Origin: Crocinitomicaceae bacterium
GTDB taxonomy: Bacteria > Bacteroidota > Bacteroidia > Flavobacteriales_D > Crocinitomicaceae
Direction of reading: 5' to 3'
Assembly (NCBI GenBank): GCA_014762645.1
Contig: JABURP010000068.1
Span: 62,001 to 126,000 of the forward strand
Length of the DNA stretch: 64,000 bases
Below, one piece after another: positions 20,047-28,995 of the stretch. Under the pieces are notes generated by a model that was not told where the DNA came from, made no database searches, and was given only the letters and a program-made list of their open reading frames with translations. A program made the translations under genes and the position numbers. Positions within the stretch are counted from its first letter, which is position 1; each line of letters opens with the position of its first letter.

Positions 20047-22869
20047 ATGAATCCCGGAAACCGCAGATATCTATTAATCCTCTTTTTTGCATTGGCGTTT
20101 GCAAGTTGTAGACAGGCCAAGTACGTTCCGGATGACTATTATCTGCTAAAAGAAAATAATACAGAGTATTACGTTTTATCCGATTCAACAGGTGAATGGC
20201 AGGATAATCACAGTCAAATTGATGAAGGTGATTTGGAGGATCTTATACGACCAGAGACAAATAATGGATTTAGACTTTGGGTGTATAACCGTATTGATAC
20301 GGGGCGCTATCAAAAACAGGTTATCCGTAAACGAAAAAAGTTCAATAAAAAGAATGAACGTAGACAAGCACGGGAGGATCGGATAAATAAAAAGCGCATT
20401 CAGAAAGCCAGAAAAAAAGGCAAGGAGAAATACAAGAAGAAGACGATAAAAGATAAAGCGGTTCGCTTGGGTTGGCGTCACTGGGTCCTTGATCATTGGG
20501 GAGAACCGCCGGTGATTCTCGATACGGCAAAAATCTCAAAATCCAGGCAACAGATGAAAGTGTACCTTTCAAAAAAAGGCTTTAAATACGGAGAGGTAAC
20601 AGACTCCATTACTTACAATGAAAAAAAACAAAAGGCTAGCGTGACGTATTACGTCAATCCGGGTAAACCATACATTATTGATAGCATTTGGTTTCATAAG
20701 ACCGTCTATAATCGCAGGCTGATTGGGGAATATGAGGAAATGAAGCGAAAAGAGGGTACTGATTTGGAAGTTGGTGATCTATTGGACGAAGACAAGCTGG
20801 ATGATGAACGTGATCACATGACGACCTATTTTAAAGACAAAGCCTTCTTCGGGTTTACAAAAAGTTATATCAATTTTATTGTCGACACAACTGTAGGTGA
20901 TTTTAAAGCACATGTCGCTATCTATATAAAACCCAGAGAAATACCTGACCCTAATAATCCGGATACTACCAGAAATCTTCAACATTACACCTATTACGTT
21001 GGCGAAGTCACGTATAAATTACACAATCCGGATTCCGCTTCTTTTAATGACTGGGAAGGGTATAAAAAAAGATGCGAGGCATTTGGGTATTCATGGCCAT
21101 ACAGGGATGAGAATCAAAATTACTATCTGCTGGACACCATGTTTATTGAGGATACGACTATTAACACTTACTACATTAATTTTGAAAAAAATCGTAGAAA
21201 AAAATGTGGCTTGTTTGGTAAATGTATCGATACCACTATTAACTATAAAGGTTATTTCATTTATAATGAAGAACCATTTCTGAAACCAACTTTACTCGAT
21301 AAGCAAAACTTCCTTGAACATACTGATATAGAAAGAGACGATAAAAACTTTGCAAAAGATTACTATATCGATCGTACCTTTAAAAGCTTTTACAGGCTGG
21401 ATGTTTTCTCACGAGTAACGCCTAATGTAGGCATTCGTGAAAGTGAACCATTGGGCAGATTTGTGGATGTTTCTTATGACCTGACTCCGGCACCAAAACA
21501 ACAATTTACAATTGAGCCTAGAGCAACGAATACCGCAAGTATTTTAGGGGTGTCAGGTAGGATTAGTTACGTCAATAAAAATCTTTTCAGATCGGGCCAT
21601 CAGTTGAAAATATCAGTTGAAGGAGGGTTACAATCCCAACCTTTAGTAGGTGGATCAAGAGATGACTCTACCACATTTCGCTTCCGCGGATTGAATACGT
21701 TTGAATTTTCACCGGAAATAACCTACAAAATCCCACGCTTTTTCCCTATGACGAAAAAAATGCGCGAAACAGTCTCCAAAAGGGCCTATCCTTCAACTGA
21801 AATTACGGCCCTGTATAATTATCAGAAACGACCTGAATTTTCAAGGCATATTGCGGAGTTTGGGTATCGTTGGAAATTTTCAATTCCTCCTGATGAAATA
21901 CAACGGGTAACGATTACACCATTAGTTTTTAATTACGTTTTTCTAAATAAAACAGCTGAATTTGATTCGGTCCTCAATAAAACGAATGACCCATTTCTAA
22001 TTAATTCGTATTCCGACTTTTTGTCAATTGGGATTTTGAATGCTCGTCACGAGTATACCAATGCGGCATTACCAAAAAGAAAGCGAAAGAAGAGGTACGT
22101 TGAAAACACGTATAGCAATGTCGTTGATCTCAACGCGGCAGGTTTAATCGTAAATACTATTTATGCCATGGCCGATAAGAATCAAAACTTCACAGAATCC
22201 TTTAATGATACGAACAAAGTACTTTTCGGAGTTCCTTTCACACAATATGCAAAATTGACGAATACCACCATTTACAACATGTACGTCAATAAAAATCACA
22301 GGGTAGCCACACGTTTGATTATGGGGGCAGGATTTACTTATGGCAATGGTTTTGCCTTACCGTACACACAAAGTTTTGTGGGCGGAGGTTCAAATGATAT
22401 TCGTGCATTTGCTGCAAGAACAATGGCACCCGGAGGCACACAAGTGTGGGCAGATACCAATGCCACGGAAACTCAAATTGGGGACATGAAACTTGAACTC
22501 AATGTGGAATGGAGATTTAGAATTGCAGGGCAATTGCACGGTGCCATCTTTACGGATATTGGAAATATATGGAAGATTAATTCAGATTCTGCCAGTAATG
22601 ACCCCGGGGTATTTAATTTCAATACATTTTACAAACAGGTAGCCATTGGAGTGGGATTTGGAGTGCGCTATGATCTAACATTCCTTATTCTCAGGCTTGA
22701 TGTTTCATGGCCTTTACATAACCCTTATCTCCCTGAAGGTGCGCGCTGGTGGCGTGTTGGTGACAAGTCGGCCTACGTGACTGCTGTTAAGGAACAACAG
22801 GCTAATTATGACTTCAGGGATTGGCCACATGGTCCAACCTTTAATTTTGGAATCGGATATCCATTCTAG
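20047..22869 (+). CDS. tamL: TamL-like outer-membrane Omp85 lipoprotein
   Basis: About 940 residues; TTG 20044 is adjacent, but ATG 20047 is preferred. The N terminus is a lipoprotein signal (LILFFALAFASC), unusual for Omp85 proteins but characteristic of TamL, the Bacteroidota lipoprotein version of TamA. A Lys/Arg-rich segment (about 95-150) precedes POTRA-like domains (YYVNPGKPYIIDSIWF and others). A long 16-strand-type barrel follows, with the late motif SFVGGGSNDIRAF, equivalent to the VRGF/Y loop-6 region, and a C terminus ending in Phe (NFGIGYPF). It probably inserts or exports outer-membrane or surface proteins. tamB is not adjacent. The sialidase-like gene follows by 3 bp. Confidence 0.85.
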   Translation: MNPGNRRYLLILFFALAFASCRQAKYVPDDYYLLKENNTEYYVLSDSTGEWQDNHSQIDEGDLEDLIRPETNNGFRLWVYNRIDTGRYQKQVIRKRKKFNKKNERRQAREDRINKKRIQKARKKGKEKYKKKTIKDKAVRLGWRHWVLDHWGEPPVILDTAKISKSRQQMKVYLSKKGFKYGEVTDSITYNEKKQKASVTYYVNPGKPYIIDSIWFHKTVYNRRLIGEYEEMKRKEGTDLEVGDLLDEDKLDDERDHMTTYFKDKAFFGFTKSYINFIVDTTVGDFKAHVAIYIKPREIPDPNNPDTTRNLQHYTYYVGEVTYKLHNPDSASFNDWEGYKKRCEAFGYSWPYRDENQNYYLLDTMFIEDTTINTYYINFEKNRRKKCGLFGKCIDTTINYKGYFIYNEEPFLKPTLLDKQNFLEHTDIERDDKNFAKDYYIDRTFKSFYRLDVFSRVTPNVGIRESEPLGRFVDVSYDLTPAPKQQFTIEPRATNTASILGVSGRISYVNKNLFRSGHQLKISVEGGLQSQPLVGGSRDDSTTFRFRGLNTFEFSPEITYKIPRFFPMTKKMRETVSKRAYPSTEITALYNYQKRPEFSRHIAEFGYRWKFSIPPDEIQRVTITPLVFNYVFLNKTAEFDSVLNKTNDPFLINSYSDFLSIGILNARHEYTNAALPKRKRKKRYVENTYSNVVDLNAAGLIVNTIYAMADKNQNFTESFNDTNKVLFGVPFTQYAKLTNTTIYNMYVNKNHRVATRLIMGAGFTYGNGFALPYTQSFVGGGSNDIRAFAARTMAPGGTQVWADTNATETQIGDMKLELNVEWRFRIAGQLHGAIFTDIGNIWKINSDSASNDPGVFNFNTFYKQVAIGVGFGVRYDLTFLILRLDVSWPLHNPYLPEGARWWRVGDKSAYVTAVKEQQANYDFRDWPHGPTFNFGIGYPF

Positions 22870-24163: not shown

Positions 24164-26113
24164 ATGCAGCTATCTGTCATCATAGTTAATTACAATGTTG
24201 AGTTCTTTCTGGAACAATGTCTGAACTCTGTCTTTGCAGCACTCAAACACGTTGAAGGCGAAGTTTATGTGGTGGATAATAACTCTATTGACGGGTCACT
24301 CGCCATGGTACAAGCAAAGTTCCCACAAGTACACCTTATTGCCAATAAAGAAAATGTTGGCTTTTCAAGGGCAAATAACCAGGCATTGCGAGTAGCCAAA
24401 GGAAAATATCATCTGCTCTTAAATCCTGACACAATTGTAGAAGAAGACACCTTTAAGAAGGTGATAGATTTTATGGATGAACATCCTGAAGCAGGTGGTT
24501 TAGGAGTTAAAATGATTGATGGAAAAGGTAACTTTTTACCAGAGTCCAAAAGAGGATTACCCACACCAAAAGATGCTTTTTATAAAATATTTGGCTTGTC
24601 CAGGTTATTTCCCAGATCAAAGCGTTTTGGGCGTTACCATCTGTCTTTTTTGGACAAGAACGAGATACATGAAGTGGAAATTCTTTCAGGAGCATTTATG
24701 CTGATGAGAAAAGAAGCATTGGACAAGGTTGGATTATTGGATGAAGACTTCTTTATGTATGGGGAGGATATTGACCTGAGCTATCGTATAGTCTTGGGGG
24801 GATACAAAAATTATTACTATCCTAAAACCCGAATCATTCATTACAAAGGTGAGAGTACAAAGAAAAGTTCGGTGAATTATGTATTCGTGTTTTACAATGC
24901 CATGATCATTTTTGCCAAAAAGCACTTCTCCGAGAAAAACGCTCGACTGTATTCGTTTCTGATCAACCTGGCCATCTACTTTAGAGCAAGTATTGCCTTG
25001 TTGACACGCTTTGTAAAGAAAGCCATTGTTCCGGTTATTGATCTTACATTCATTGTGTTAGGGTTGTTTTTAATCGCTCAGAATTACCAACGAATTGAGC
25101 AAATTCAAATTCCGGAGGAATTATTGTTTGTGGCTCTTCCGGTTTATGGCGTTGTATGGTTTCTATCACAGGTTTTTGTTGGGGGATATGACAAGCCCAT
25201 CAGGTTGTATAAAAATATTTTAGGATCTGTGATAGGTACCGGGGTGATCCTGGTGGTTTATGCCTTACTGAGTAAAGATTATCAATTCTCCCGGTTGATC
25301 ATCCTTTTGGGAGGATCCTGGGTTGCCGTTTATTACCTGGCATCAAGGTTTGTTTTACATCATTTGGTTGGGGAACATTACAGGATCGGCGGAGCAAAGA
25401 ATAAACGTTTTGCGATAGTGGGAGATGCTCAGGAAGTGGAACGTGTCAACCAAATCCTCCAACAAACGAATTCTAAAATTCAGTCTGTAATTTATTTGTC
25501 ACCTGAAGATGAAAAAAGAGATGATAAATTTTTAGGTACTTTCTCGCAGCTGGATCAGGCCGTGGATATTCACGACATTGATGAAATAATTTTTTGTGCT
25601 AAGAATATTTCAGCTGCGCAAATTATTACGAAGATGCTTCAACTGGAAAGTCGTAACGTAGATTTCAAAATTGCTCAGCCGGAAACTTCATTTCTAATTG
25701 GCAGCAATTCGATTGACTCACAAGGCGACTTGTATGTCATGGACATCAATCGTATCAATAAGCCCGCTAACCGCCGGAATAAACGCATTATTGATGTGTC
25801 TTTGTCATTTTTATTGCTGATGCTTTCCCCTTTGATTGTATGGGGGTATAAAAACAAGTCCAACTTCATTCGCAACATGTTTGGAGTATTGATTGGAAGA
25901 CTCTCTTTTGTGGGCTATGCGAGAATTGAGCACGCATCTAATTTACGTTTGCCAACAATTCGTAAAGGAATTCTGAATTCGTTGATGATGGTCCCTGATA
26001 CAAAAAAGGATGATGACGCCATATCCCGATTGAATTTGATTTACGCCAAGAATCATTCCTTTATCATGGATCTGAAGATCATTTTCCGAAACCTCGGGAA
26101 GTTAGATCGGTAG
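24164..26113 (+). CDS. GT2 glycosyltransferase fused to membrane and degenerate sugar-transferase-like modules
   Basis: A 649-residue multidomain protein. Residues 1-240 are a GT2 domain: LSVIIVNYNVEFFLEQCL, YVVDNNSIDGS, LLLNPDTIV as acidic motif, and YGEDIDLSYRI at the acceptor site. Several membrane segments follow (about 265-300, 320-345, 350-370, 378-400). Next is a Rossmann-like domain around 415-530 (KRFAIVGDAQEVERVNQIL), as in WbaP/WcaJ-type proteins. The tail (about 540-649) aligns by eye with bacterial sugar transferases (KRIIDVSLSFLLLMLSPL, LSFVGYARIE, a final SFIMDLKIIFRNLG), but the segments bearing the KFRSM and DELPQ motifs and the PRP loop are missing. I infer an inactive phosphoglycosyl-transferase remnant serving as a membrane module. 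Confidence 0.85.
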   Translation: MQLSVIIVNYNVEFFLEQCLNSVFAALKHVEGEVYVVDNNSIDGSLAMVQAKFPQVHLIANKENVGFSRANNQALRVAKGKYHLLLNPDTIVEEDTFKKVIDFMDEHPEAGGLGVKMIDGKGNFLPESKRGLPTPKDAFYKIFGLSRLFPRSKRFGRYHLSFLDKNEIHEVEILSGAFMLMRKEALDKVGLLDEDFFMYGEDIDLSYRIVLGGYKNYYYPKTRIIHYKGESTKKSSVNYVFVFYNAMIIFAKKHFSEKNARLYSFLINLAIYFRASIALLTRFVKKAIVPVIDLTFIVLGLFLIAQNYQRIEQIQIPEELLFVALPVYGVVWFLSQVFVGGYDKPIRLYKNILGSVIGTGVILVVYALLSKDYQFSRLIILLGGSWVAVYYLASRFVLHHLVGEHYRIGGAKNKRFAIVGDAQEVERVNQILQQTNSKIQSVIYLSPEDEKRDDKFLGTFSQLDQAVDIHDIDEIIFCAKNISAAQIITKMLQLESRNVDFKIAQPETSFLIGSNSIDSQGDLYVMDINRINKPANRRNKRIIDVSLSFLLLMLSPLIVWGYKNKSNFIRNMFGVLIGRLSFVGYARIEHASNLRLPTIRKGILNSLMMVPDTKKDDDAISRLNLIYAKNHSFIMDLKIIFRNLGKLDR

Positions 26114-26311: not shown

Positions 26312-26329
26312 TACCGTATTTTTACGGTA
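26312..26329. promoter_or_regulatory. Perfect inverted repeat TACCGTA-TTTT-TACGGTA
   Basis: A 7-bp perfect palindrome with a TTTT spacer near the end of the response-regulator operon. It could be an operator, or a terminator hairpin for the plus strand (followed by ATTTTG and an A-rich run). Its left arm could alternatively pair with GGTAG at 26287-26291. Confidence 0.4.
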
Positions 26330-26395: not shown

Positions 26396-27064
26396 CTAAT
26401 ACTCCTTGTCAATCTTTATGATTCCATTTTTTACACCATACATAATAACACCACATGCATTTTTAACGCCTGTTTTAGTCATTATACTGGCTTTGTATCC
26501 ATCAATGGTTCGTGCACTTTTGTGTAGCATATCCGCTATTTCTTTTGTCGTGAGTTCCCGGCTCATTAATTTTATCACTTCAATCTCGGCTTCATTCAGT
26601 TGCTCCTCTTCATCTTCAAACCGAGGTTTGATTTTACCCTGAGATACCAGGTTGCCAATTAAATGTTTGCTGGTACGATCATTCAGATAGTAACCTGTAG
26701 AACATGTACTCTCAATTGCTTTGAAAATCTCTTCTGCGCTCTCCTCTTTGGTTATATAACCAACTGCTCCGTTAGCAATGGAATTGAGGACAAATTCTTC
26801 TGCTTCGTAGTTGGAAAGCATAAGAATTTTGATATCTGGATACTTGCTTGTCAAAATGCGAGTAGCTTCAATCCCATTCATAATTGGCATTTGAAAATCC
26901 ATAAAGACAATATCCGGAACATTGCCTCTTGCCTGATTGATCAGGTCTTTACCGTTAGCCGCTTCTATTGTGACTTTTAACCCTTTTTTGGAGTTAATTA
27001 CTTTGGCCAGTCCTGCTCTGAACATTTCCTGATCCTCCGCTATGGCTATTTTTACTTCAGGCAT
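26396..27064 (-). CDS. NarL/FixJ-type response regulator
   Basis: A 222-residue two-component regulator. The receiver domain (1-120) has the acidic pair E10/D11, the phospho-acceptor Asp56 in VFMDFQMP, the conserved Ser/Thr at LMLSN and Lys in GYITKE. The C-terminal HTH_LuxR domain (about 155-215) has LNEAEIEVIKLMSRELTTKEIA and a recognition helix around SARTIDGYKASI. It is last of four overlapping genes; its start overlaps the kinase gene by 8 bp, so the two are clearly a pair. Candidate binding sites are the TACGG-type inverted repeats on either side of the operon, but this is a guess. Confidence 0.95.
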   Translation of the reverse strand: MPEVKIAIAEDQEMFRAGLAKVINSKKGLKVTIEAANGKDLINQARGNVPDIVFMDFQMPIMNGIEATRILTSKYPDIKILMLSNYEAEEFVLNSIANGAVGYITKEESAEEIFKAIESTCSTGYYLNDRTSKHLIGNLVSQGKIKPRFEDEEEQLNEAEIEVIKLMSRELTTKEIADMLHKSARTIDGYKASIMTKTGVKNACGVIMYGVKNGIIKIDKEY

Positions 27065-27842
27065 AATATTTTGTTATGATAACCCGATTACCCTTTTCAA
27101 GGGTTGCATCTCTTTCGTATTCTGCATTGATTTGTTGTAATCTGCTCTCAATATTTCTTAAACCAAAGTGTTTTTCGCTAATTACTTGCTGATCCTTGTC
27201 AAATTCAATACCGTCATCCATAATTTCCAGTTGTGTGTGTGTATGTTCAATATGTGTTAAAGATACCTTGATACAACTACACTTTGAGTGCTTGAGAATA
27301 TTGCTGAGTGATTCTTGCGCTATTCGAAAAAATGCGAGTTCAACTTCTTTATCAATTGAATATTCATCTGTGTCTGGGCAGATGCTCTCATAACTAATTC
27401 TGATTTCAGAGCTTCTGCTTAAAGTCGAACACAAGTTTTTCAAAGCGTTACAAAGTCCAAGTTCCTGTAAAATAATTGGGTGTAATTCATTACAAATTTC
27501 CCGAACTCTGATAACGACATCCTTCAAGTGGTTATCCAATTCTATTCGGTCTTTTTCATCAATTTGATAACCATTAAGATTGAGCTTGATTGCTGTAATA
27601 TTGGAGCCTACTTCATCATGGAGTTCTCGTGCTATTCTTTCCTGTTCTACTTCTTTGGCTCTAACCACCGAGTCTAATAGTTGTTTCTGATATTGCTGTT
27701 CAACCTTGCTAAATTGTAGTTTTTTCTGCAATAATTTTCGTCGGTACACAAACACAAATAGAACTAAACTGAATACCAGCATTAGCATACCTATAGTTCC
27801 GGTTAAAATTATCGTTATATCTGTCTGTGACGGCCCTTCCAT
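27057..27842 (-). CDS. Sensor histidine kinase of the HisKA_3 (NarX/DesK-like) type, no sensor domain
   Basis: A 261-residue kinase with one N-terminal membrane helix (residues about 10-33), a short coiled coil, then HisKA_3 with phospho-acceptor His75 in ERIARELHDEVGSNITAI. The HATPase domain has FRIAQESLSNILKHSKCS (N box), DDGIEFD (the G1-box Gly position is kept but the rest is shortened) and KHFGLRNIESRL (G2). It has almost no extracytoplasmic sequence, so the signal must come from another protein. The 6-TM gene upstream overlaps it by 28 bp and is the obvious candidate. It phosphorylates the regulator encoded next to it. Confidence 0.93.
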   Translation of the reverse strand: MEGPSQTDITIILTGTIGMLMLVFSLVLFVFVYRRKLLQKKLQFSKVEQQYQKQLLDSVVRAKEVEQERIARELHDEVGSNITAIKLNLNGYQIDEKDRIELDNHLKDVVIRVREICNELHPIILQELGLCNALKNLCSTLSRSSEIRISYESICPDTDEYSIDKEVELAFFRIAQESLSNILKHSKCSCIKVSLTHIEHTHTQLEIMDDGIEFDKDQQVISEKHFGLRNIESRLQQINAEYERDATLEKGNRVIITKYYA

Positions 27843-28450
27843 AGTGAAATTGCGAGAAGTAGGTTTAAAATTAAATTTAAAAAGGTATGGATTAGCCAGT
27901 TACTAAAAAAACTTTCTTCATCCATATATTTAATGCCGTATAAGAAAAGAAATAACGTTCCTGAAAAGTAGGTGAGAAAACCTGTGAACATCCAAAATTG
28001 CCATGATTTGAGAATATCCTCCTCTTCAATATCTGTCAATTCTTTTATATAATAACCCAAACAAAAAACCAGAATAATAATACCCTCTATTGCGCGCTCA
28101 ATACCATTAAAATGATTGATTGACATGGTGGAGAATATCATAATTAAATGAAACCCAATGAACGCAGGAATTAAAAAATAGATAATTAATGAAAGTGTTT
28201 TCGAATTAAAATAGAGATGGAAAATCCAAAGAATTATGCTGAATTCTATAACTGTATGGAAGTGAAAAACCCACATGTTATTGATGCCATTATTGGCCAT
28301 CCAGGTGGCTGAAAGATCAAGAATAAAAGTAAGAAGCAAAAAGACGCCCAATAACTTGAGCGCCTTGTTAAGGTATTTAAAATTCCAGAACCACACCACC
28401 AGCGGTATGATTATAGAAAATAGCGATATGTAGATTAATACAGCAATCAA
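27815..28450 (-). CDS. Six-helix membrane protein in a two-component operon
   Basis: A 211-residue very hydrophobic protein with about six membrane helices (starting at residues ~3, 31, 58, 88, 120, 155 and perhaps 185) and short loops. No transport or enzyme motif was seen; the layout resembles 7TM/5TM-type sensory membrane modules. It overlaps the 102-residue gene upstream by 4 bp (ATGA) and the histidine kinase downstream by 28 bp, so it is translated together with them. I infer that it is the input module for the sensor-less kinase. A structural membrane protein of other function cannot be excluded. Confidence 0.82.
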   Translation of the reverse strand: MIAVLIYISLFSIIIPLVVWFWNFKYLNKALKLLGVFLLLTFILDLSATWMANNGINNMWVFHFHTVIEFSIILWIFHLYFNSKTLSLIIYFLIPAFIGFHLIMIFSTMSINHFNGIERAIEGIIILVFCLGYYIKELTDIEEEDILKSWQFWMFTGFLTYFSGTLFLFLYGIKYMDEESFFSNWLIHTFLNLILNLLLAISLWKGRHRQI

Positions 28451-28755
28451 CTGTTTAAGTCATTCGACTCTCCACAATAGGAGGGGCAGGGCAGGGAGAT
28501 GTCCGCCACTTTTCCAATGATATCATCTCCGTTGCTATCTGCACCCACAATTACGAGAGCCAGATCGTCATTACTATCGATTGCAAAATACATACGTATT
28601 CCCATGCAATCTTCCTGTGCTAAGAGTTCTTTCAGGATGTCTTTTCCAAAAAATCTACCTTTTACTTCGTTGGGATAATTAGTACGAAAACTCCCTGTCA
28701 TACTTGATCCGTTTGATAAGGTGATTTCTCCACCTTCTGTTCCATCATAAGCCAT
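28447..28755 (-). CDS. Small conserved-looking cytoplasmic protein, first gene of the two-component operon
   Basis: A 102-residue protein without signal peptide. It starts MAYDGTEGGEITL and contains the segments KGRFFGKDILKELLAQEDCMGIRMYFAI and LALVIVGADSNGDDIIG, followed by a Cys-containing tail (LPCPSYCGES). I recall the pattern FFGKD-(I)L-x-x-(I/L)LAQ-x-x-C-x-GIR(M/I)Y from uncharacterised Bacteroidota proteins, but know no function. The stop overlaps the start of the membrane-protein gene (ATGA), which ties it to the sensory operon, perhaps as a signal-binding or output partner. Confidence 0.78.
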   Translation of the reverse strand: MAYDGTEGGEITLSNGSSMTGSFRTNYPNEVKGRFFGKDILKELLAQEDCMGIRMYFAIDSNDDLALVIVGADSNGDDIIGKVADISLPCPSYCGESNDLNS

Positions 28756-28995
28756 AATAAATAGTGTTAAGTTAAAAATGAATTAAATGAAACATCAAGA
28801 TAGATAAGTCTACTCCGTTATTTATCAAACTTTTTTCAACAAAAGTAAGAACACCCATAAAATTAAGGAGATTACCACCTAAAAATCAGTAATAATACGC
28901 AAGCGATTGCAGGAAATACGGTTTTTTACATTCCGTAGAATTTGCATTGACTATTTATAACCTGATAGCGTATCTTAGTTTAAGAATAAAGGTAT
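28756..28995. promoter_or_regulatory. Divergent intergenic region with TACGG/CCGTA inverted repeat
   Basis: About 240 bases separate two divergent genes. TACGG at 28917-28921 and CCGTA at 28933-28937 form a spaced inverted repeat, 34 bases upstream of TATCTTAG (28971-28978), a one-mismatch -7 box for the gene at 28996. The same core occurs in the palindrome at 26312. Confidence 0.35.

Follow-up and report, generated by a model that had tools for sequence, protein, structure and literature searches.

Introduction

In the LiaFSR and VraTSR systems of Firmicutes, a separate membrane protein controls an almost sensor-less histidine kinase, which is followed by a NarL-type response regulator. The LiaS kinase has two helices and a short extracellular loop, and LiaIH, which comes first in the Lia operon, is an effector encoded next to the promoter and produced upon firing of the kinase. 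Multi-helix membrane receptors likewise feed bacterial kinases of the 7TMR-DISM and LytS types, where the receptor domain is fused to the kinase; in Agr peptide quorum sensing, a membrane cysteine protease, AgrB, is found together with a LytTR-type regulator. The membrane protein LiaF is called an accessory negative regulator in a passage of PMC3543457, and in the DbfQRS system of Vibrio cholerae, according to the abstract of PMC12714742, a small protein encoded beside a kinase-regulator pair modulates that pair, DbfQ being periplasmic and binding the kinase's own sensory domain. Here we analyse a four-gene set that resembles these systems in part, found in a 64,000-nucleotide stretch of DNA (the window) from Crocinitomicaceae bacterium (assembly GCA_014762645.1, contig JABURP010000068.1, positions 62,001 to 126,000). 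It encodes a 102-residue protein (S102), a seven-helix membrane protein, a histidine kinase and a response regulator. We propose that the seven-helix protein is probably the detached input of the kinase and S102 its dedicated partner, in an operon that regulates itself.

The set departs from each of the systems named. LiaF is of a different family; the protein here has seven helices, its kinase has one, and the first-gene partner is unlike LiaIH. No LiaF-type match was found in Pfam or NCBIfam for the window's seven-helix protein, or in Pfam for 54 relatives, and in place of the two helices of a LiaS-type kinase, one was read from the sequence of the window kinase and one was given by hydropathy counts for most of its relatives. 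The seven-helix protein is encoded by a gene of its own, unlike the kinase-fused 7TMR-DISM and LytS-type domains, and the 7TMR-DISM Pfam region matched 0 of 54 family members at E values up to 0.01. A seven-helix subunit like the one here is not named in the DbfQRS abstract (PMC12714742). As for Agr, the 30 best-conserved positions in the seven-helix family include no cysteine, and the regulator here is GerE-type.

Four overlapping genes encode a two-component pair and two further proteins

All four genes lie on the minus strand, in the order S102 (28447-28755), seven-helix protein (27815-28450; 211 residues, TTG start), kinase (27057-27842; 261 residues) and regulator (26396-27064; 222 residues). 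Each was called as an open reading frame (ORF), the kinase being identified also by Pfam and the regulator by Pfam and NCBIfam. As a preliminary description of this DNA had reported, consecutive frames overlap, by 4, 28 and 8 bp, and the TTG start codon of the seven-helix gene overlaps the TGA stop of the S102 gene. This gene order is repeated in many genomes across the phylum and is thus more than a chance arrangement; the four genes probably form a single signalling unit.

The kinase consists of HisKA_3 (residues 66-121) and HATPase_c (168-253) domains and the regulator of a receiver (6-118) and a GerE/LuxR helix-turn-helix (HTH; 156-208), all above Pfam cut-offs, so that both partners of a two-component system are present. 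As read from the sequence, a single hydrophobic helix at about residues 10-32 of the kinase is preceded by about nine residues, and a sensor domain is absent. Sequence and domains thus bear out a kinase with one membrane helix and no sensor of its own, paired with a NarL-type regulator, as initially described. H75 and N181 are invariant in 27 aligned kinases, and certain residues recur in the membrane helix (G15 and T16 in 15 of 27, M19 in 16 of 27). Against NCBIfam models the window kinase scored 1.3e-31 for MctS, 8.3e-25 for UhpB and 3.1e-23 for LiaS, all below cut-off. The DxGxG motif forms part of the ATP-binding box of such kinases; in those of L091, L093, L096, L097, L098, L106, L107, L109 and L113 (L numbers denote individual loci) a histidine replaces its first aspartate (HNG or HDG), hinting at altered ATP binding or at pseudokinases.

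The membrane protein is predicted to have seven helices

The membrane protein had been taken for a six-helix protein; its AF2 model, which is confident (mean pLDDT 93.4, pTM 0.89), has seven membrane helices. Across 54 relatives, lysine and arginine residues average 3.1 in the loop between helices 1 and 2, 2.4 between 3 and 4, 2.0 between 5 and 6 and 2.5 at the C-terminus, against 0.5-1.1 elsewhere, and this concentration of basic residues therefore indicates an N-out/C-in topology. The family has no credible Pfam match among 54 members; the single family listed, DUF3817, matched one of the 54 at E 0.007 and was taken as noise. Sequence searches of the PDB found no credible match for either this family or S102 (best E values 5.7 and 1), and NCBIfam gave nothing above cut-off for the window S102, the window seven-helix protein or ten other first genes.

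The likeness to microbial rhodopsins and G-protein-coupled receptors (GPCRs) is one of superposition of the predicted seven-helix bundle; searches of Pfam and the PDB found no sequence relative. Foldseek gave TMq values up to 0.64 against these proteins, with a best E of 0.14, and VIA-align a best Z of 14.1 (root-mean-square deviation 3.9 over 204 residues), with Z of at least 8 for 949 of 1000 aligned chains. Because unrelated helical bundles also reach a Z of about 14, we claim only the arrangement of the helices from this superposition. The retinal-binding lysine of rhodopsins has no counterpart mid helix 7 (residues 178-205), which carries no lysine before its cytoplasmic end.

Several polar positions recur in or near the membrane (E69, H63, N57, N58, N196 and Y161), and these could be catalytic or line a path, as they would in an enzyme or transporter whose gene is merely co-regulated with that of the kinase. 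We consider such a role very improbable: no polar position is invariant across the 54 sequences, no enzyme or transporter family was matched, and the coupling described below is confined to short kinases, longer ones showing none.

The seven-helix gene is coupled to S102 and to short HisKA_3 kinases

The preliminary description had proposed an uncharacterised signalling module and had named, as the finding that would speak against it, homologues lying mostly away from two-component genes. This did not prove to be the case: the seven-helix gene is the next gene on the same strand for 95 of 102 assessable S102 homologues, plus L096 by eye (103 distinct proteins, one cut by a contig end), and a kinase lies within 400 bp downstream of 146 of 172 distinct seven-helix genes, with tandem copies and cut stretches scored as misses. 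The gap between S102 and the seven-helix gene is at most 20 bp, overlaps included, in 78 of the 95 pairs. The six S102 genes that miss the pairing are L115, the longer secreted forms at L045-L047 and the extra copies at L116 and L117. Since 49 of the 95 seven-helix neighbours had themselves contributed rows to the profile by which they were recognised, the test was repeated by hydropathy alone, and a hydrophobic ORF of 180-300 residues was found after S102 in 93 of 102 cases, versus 22 of 314 for other ORFs of at least 200 residues.

The same coupling is seen from the side of the kinase. A kinase follows downstream on the same strand in 37 of 40 seven-helix regions, 36 of which came from genomes without an S102 match. 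Conversely, in the window genome and ten genomes chosen as carriers of the cassette, which together held 95 HisKA_3 places, 80 were analysed; the one in the window itself and 14 whose open frames reached 436 residues or more were omitted. Counting as short a kinase of up to 360 residues whose start is not cut (L228 was set aside as cut), the script placed a seven-helix gene directly upstream of 36 of 39, and 7 of those genes are rows of the profile; L236 was added by eye, its seven-helix gene having been hidden by an overlong ORF call, and L255 stops at the contig edge. For longer kinases (>360 residues) the count is 0 of 40. Among 61 genomes whose selection did not depend on the set, the window's included, a seven-helix gene precedes 8 of 9 complete short kinases (open frames of at most 300 residues) among the HisKA_3 matches listed; ten such frames were listed, one of them, in the window genome (C37), being cut. 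At one of the eight, L357, an S102-type gene stands between the seven-helix gene and the kinase. Short kinases carry the pair and longer ones do not, so that the idea of an uncharacterised signalling module is now well supported.

The set is widespread in Bacteroidota

With single-sequence searches, S102 turned up in 31 of 150 genomes of the order and the seven-helix protein in 14, four of the latter matches having E values of 0.004-0.007 and three of those four lying inside open frames longer than 900 residues. Profile searches of 395 genomes of the phylum placed S102 in 43 (E at most 0.001) and the seven-helix family in 82 (E at most 1e-6); as at most 12 S102 and seven seven-helix candidates were scored per genome, both are lower bounds, and one genome holds at least seven seven-helix genes. 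When the lists were compared by eye, all 43 S102 genomes were among the 82. The window genome and 16 other S102 genomes (17 of the 43) gave rows to the seven-helix profile, and the 26 S102 genomes that contributed none all have the family.

Named genomes, when scanned, yielded 46 S102 loci, with titles from Bacteroidota or related groups except for generic bins, one Kapaibacterium (L115) and L088. The last (CP034120.1) bears the proteobacterial name Glaciecola amylolytica but matches G130, a genome of the window's Bacteroidota family, so its title looks wrong. The order S102, seven-helix gene, kinase is kept at 42 of the 46 loci, a count that includes L096 and L114 after a further check, L089, where the kinase is split into two ORFs, and L116 and L117, each matched through an additional S102 that lies next to the cassette. 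Of the remaining four, L077 and L082 lack a kinase, L095 is at a contig end and at L115 S102 stands alone. A literature search with few subscription journals in its coverage found nothing on the gene set. We regard it as a multi-component signalling set that occurs widely in the phylum and appears to be undescribed in the literature searched.

Other explanations of this distribution were set aside. Recurrence in many genomes rules out a chance or purely local operon. As to phage or plasmid cargo, tblastn, applied to S102 against phages and to the seven-helix protein against plasmids but not the other way round, found no match, and PHROGs gave weak matches only, at E 0.079 for the window S102 and E 0.00069, to a family of unknown function, for the first gene of L181. 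PADLOC models yielded PDC-S14 in 2 of 43 S102 sequences (best E 0.0034) and two other families once each, which we regard as noise and not as a sign of a defence role.

S102 belongs to a fast-diverging group of first genes with conserved tails

The AF2 model of S102 has two helices followed by three strands (mean pLDDT 91). No convincing solved fold was found for it (Foldseek best E 0.32, VIA-align best Z 3.4), which does not by itself prove a new fold, and in Pfam 43 sequences gave nothing credible: five families appeared in one to three members each, and the best E, 0.0044 in two members, was taken as noise. R54, Y56, C90, P91 and C94 are invariant in 28 aligned relatives, C90 and C94 being nearly so in 43. 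The window protein ends in a CPxxC...NxLNS tail, and no signal peptide was seen.

Where S102 was not recognised, another small gene usually comes first in the cassette. Among 153 distinct first genes, some cut by the end of their stretch, 99 are of S102 type and 54 are others. CPxxC lies within the last 60 residues of 83 of the 99 and 19 of the 54; including looser Cys or PP tails, classes that can arise by chance, the counts rise to 97 of 99 and 50 of 54. Several of the remainder, and likewise L356 and L358, have a tail of the D/N-x-G-x-x-x-P type. Crude patterns for an export signal or an N-terminal anchor matched 8 of 99 S102-type and 19 of 54 other first genes, and lipoprotein signals are clear by eye at L156, L168, L180, L184 and other loci. 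The first genes form a fast-diverging group, some of whose members are predicted lipoproteins. Profile comparison links S102 with the groups A11 (97.9%) and A8 (91.1%), and A11 with A8 (99.3%); the link to A9 (77.9%) is likely but weak, and A10 (46.3%) has the tail alone in common. These links fall short of a single origin for all first genes, and the reading of one superfamily was set aside.

Two variants of the cassette concern the first gene. At L356 and L358 the order is regulator, first gene, seven-helix gene, kinase, and the first-gene tails end in YDxGxLxP. In two Dyadobacter genomes a second S102-type gene with a CPxxC end (L116:5734-6300, L117:5863-6300) lies divergently beside a complete cassette.

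A short protein with a conserved C-terminal CPxxC tail and variable positions between fixed ones recalls peptide quorum sensing, and the tail might be a self-inducing signal, released or displayed and then read by the seven-helix receptor. Lipoprotein and anchored forms exist and there are signs of self-regulation; moreover, divergence is fastest in the seven-helix protein, as is common for receptors, with a mean pairwise identity of 0.185 versus 0.30-0.37 for the other three proteins in 51 cassettes. We nevertheless find a signal of this kind quite improbable. The window S102 has no signal peptide, the tail is conserved and not hypervariable, the most conserved positions of the seven-helix family lack cysteine, as noted above, and no processing protease was noticed in the cassettes, though none was searched for.

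S102 travels with the seven-helix protein

At L042 and L048 the pair has duplicated as a unit, in the order S102-7TM-S102-7TM (7TM, the seven-helix gene). At L077 (451-2709) and L082 (3832-5905) it stands, with no kinase, beside proteins with a LuxR-type HTH recognised by the regulator profile; these neighbours are a multi-helix protein that ends in such an HTH and another protein in which LuxR-type HTH repeats occur several times, an arrangement that is a possible kinase-free version of the pathway. Joint duplication and the kinase-free pairs together show that S102 travels with the seven-helix protein and not with the kinase. Arrays of two or three seven-helix genes are found as well, before a single kinase at L190, L191 and L254 and with no kinase at L161; these arrays suggest hetero-oligomers.

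Partial correlations of tree distances over 51 complete S102 cassettes gave 0.21 for S102-7TM, 0.41 for 7TM-kinase and 0.79 for kinase-regulator, with -0.12 for S102-kinase and 0.08 for 7TM-regulator. The S102-7TM value was reached by 0 of 500 label shuffles, which take no account of shared ancestry. These values largely follow, and would be consistent with, a chain from S102 through the seven-helix protein and the kinase to the regulator. Together with the coupling, this co-evolution makes an input module the most likely role of the membrane protein, as originally suggested, albeit with seven helices.

Palindromes before the first gene suggest autoregulation

TAGTA-N4-TACTA occurs in 8 of 101 regions of 250 bp upstream of S102, at ten sites. 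In seven genomes the pattern TAGTAYNNRTACTA has 30 sites, 12 of them directly before an S102 or seven-helix cassette, second cassettes in two of these genomes included. For a related palindrome, CCGTA-N4-TACGG, 23 sites were counted in a further seven genomes, which include the window genome, against 3 for the control. Four of these sites, from three genomes, are located about 150-275 bp ahead of S102, and two of the seven genomes have no site. The window genome has eight, versus two for the reversed control, 0 of the 8 before S102. The two palindromes have the core GTA-N4-TAC in common, and the regulators of the two groups have different recognition helices.

Within the window, an operator-like GCGTA-TTAT-TACTG (28887-28900, minus strand) lies 132-145 bp upstream of the first gene and fits the element [CG]CGTA-N4-TAC[GT]G that precedes the first gene in relatives, a pattern loosened after the window sequence had been seen, so that the window element is a lead only. 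The perfect palindrome CCGTA-TTTT-TACGG at 26314-26327 (no strand assigned), 69 bp past the stop of the regulator gene, could just as well be the hairpin of a terminator that separates convergent genes. When the operator of the window regulator was sought as a palindrome in nine upstream regions from its sub-group, no signal exceeded that of shuffles. Autoregulation is suggested by the GTA-N4-TAC palindromes that precede the first gene in several relatives and by a looser palindrome in the window.

A proposed detached seven-helix input with a dedicated partner

From the observed gene order, coupling, domains, predicted folds and palindrome enrichment in relatives, we infer the physical contacts, direction of signalling, tail docking and regulator binding of the following scheme. 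The N-out/C-in seven-helix protein would be a receptor or regulatory subunit, acting through contact with the single membrane helix of the kinase. S102 would dock on it, most likely by its C-terminal tail, and set its state as ligand or modulator. The kinase would phosphorylate the NarL-type regulator, which would in turn bind GTA-N4-TAC palindromes before the first gene, and we propose that the operon regulates itself through this binding.

Several observations weigh against this scheme. Three of the 40 seven-helix regions (L161, L185 and L186) hold seven-helix genes without an adjoining kinase, and L289, together with L355 of the 61-genome test, is a short kinase that truly lacks a seven-helix gene. 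The partial correlation between S102 and the regulator is 0.19, which a simple chain does not predict. As to autoregulation, TAGTAYNNRTACTA read backwards as a control still gives 18 matches in the seven genomes, the strict CCGTA-N4-TACGG is absent before the window's first gene, and TAGTA-N4-TACTA is absent from the window operon. Finally, the first protein is a lipoprotein or membrane-anchored at some loci and unsecreted at others, and with compartments so mixed a single docking face cannot be assumed.

S102 could instead be an output, a promoter-proximal effector made, like LiaIH, when the kinase fires, with the seven-helix protein alone sensing. S102 is indeed the first gene of an apparently self-regulated operon, has members in more than one compartment and correlates with the regulator; furthermore, the excess of palindromes above the count for the reversed control (30 versus 18) is as large as the number at cassettes (12), so that the operon itself may be the main target of the regulator. 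That S102 duplicates as a pair with the seven-helix gene, and that all of the S102 genomes (43/43, of which 17 gave profile rows) also have the seven-helix family, speak against an effector, which should also occur alone oftener than in the few cases seen (L115, L045-L047 and the extra copies of L116 and L117). We therefore regard an output role as unlikely and favour that of a dedicated partner of the detached input.

A more far-reaching form of the favoured scheme, which we put forward as a conjecture that is on present grounds unlikely, is a widespread Bacteroidota class of seven-helix receptors with dedicated protein agonists. The first-gene protein, inside or outside the cell, would offer its conserved tail, of the form D-hydrophobic-G/S-x-x-(C)-P-P-x-(C), for recognition by a GPCR-like receptor of N-out/C-in topology, and so switch the sensor-less kinase of a self-inducing operon.

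If the proposed input role is correct, a separate seven-helix subunit and its partner would explain the route of input to the short sensor-less HisKA_3 kinases of Bacteroidota, and two widespread families that have no credible Pfam match would gain a testable role. The set could be how cells of this phylum sense something at the membrane. With at least seven seven-helix genes in one genome, a single demonstrated ligand could open a whole bacterial receptor class.

Other features of the window

A second perfect CCGTA-N4-TACGG palindrome lies at 20289-20302. On the plus strand, positions 24164-26113 encode a 649-residue protein that combines a family 2 glycosyltransferase with a CoA_binding_3 region and a weak sugar-transferase tail.

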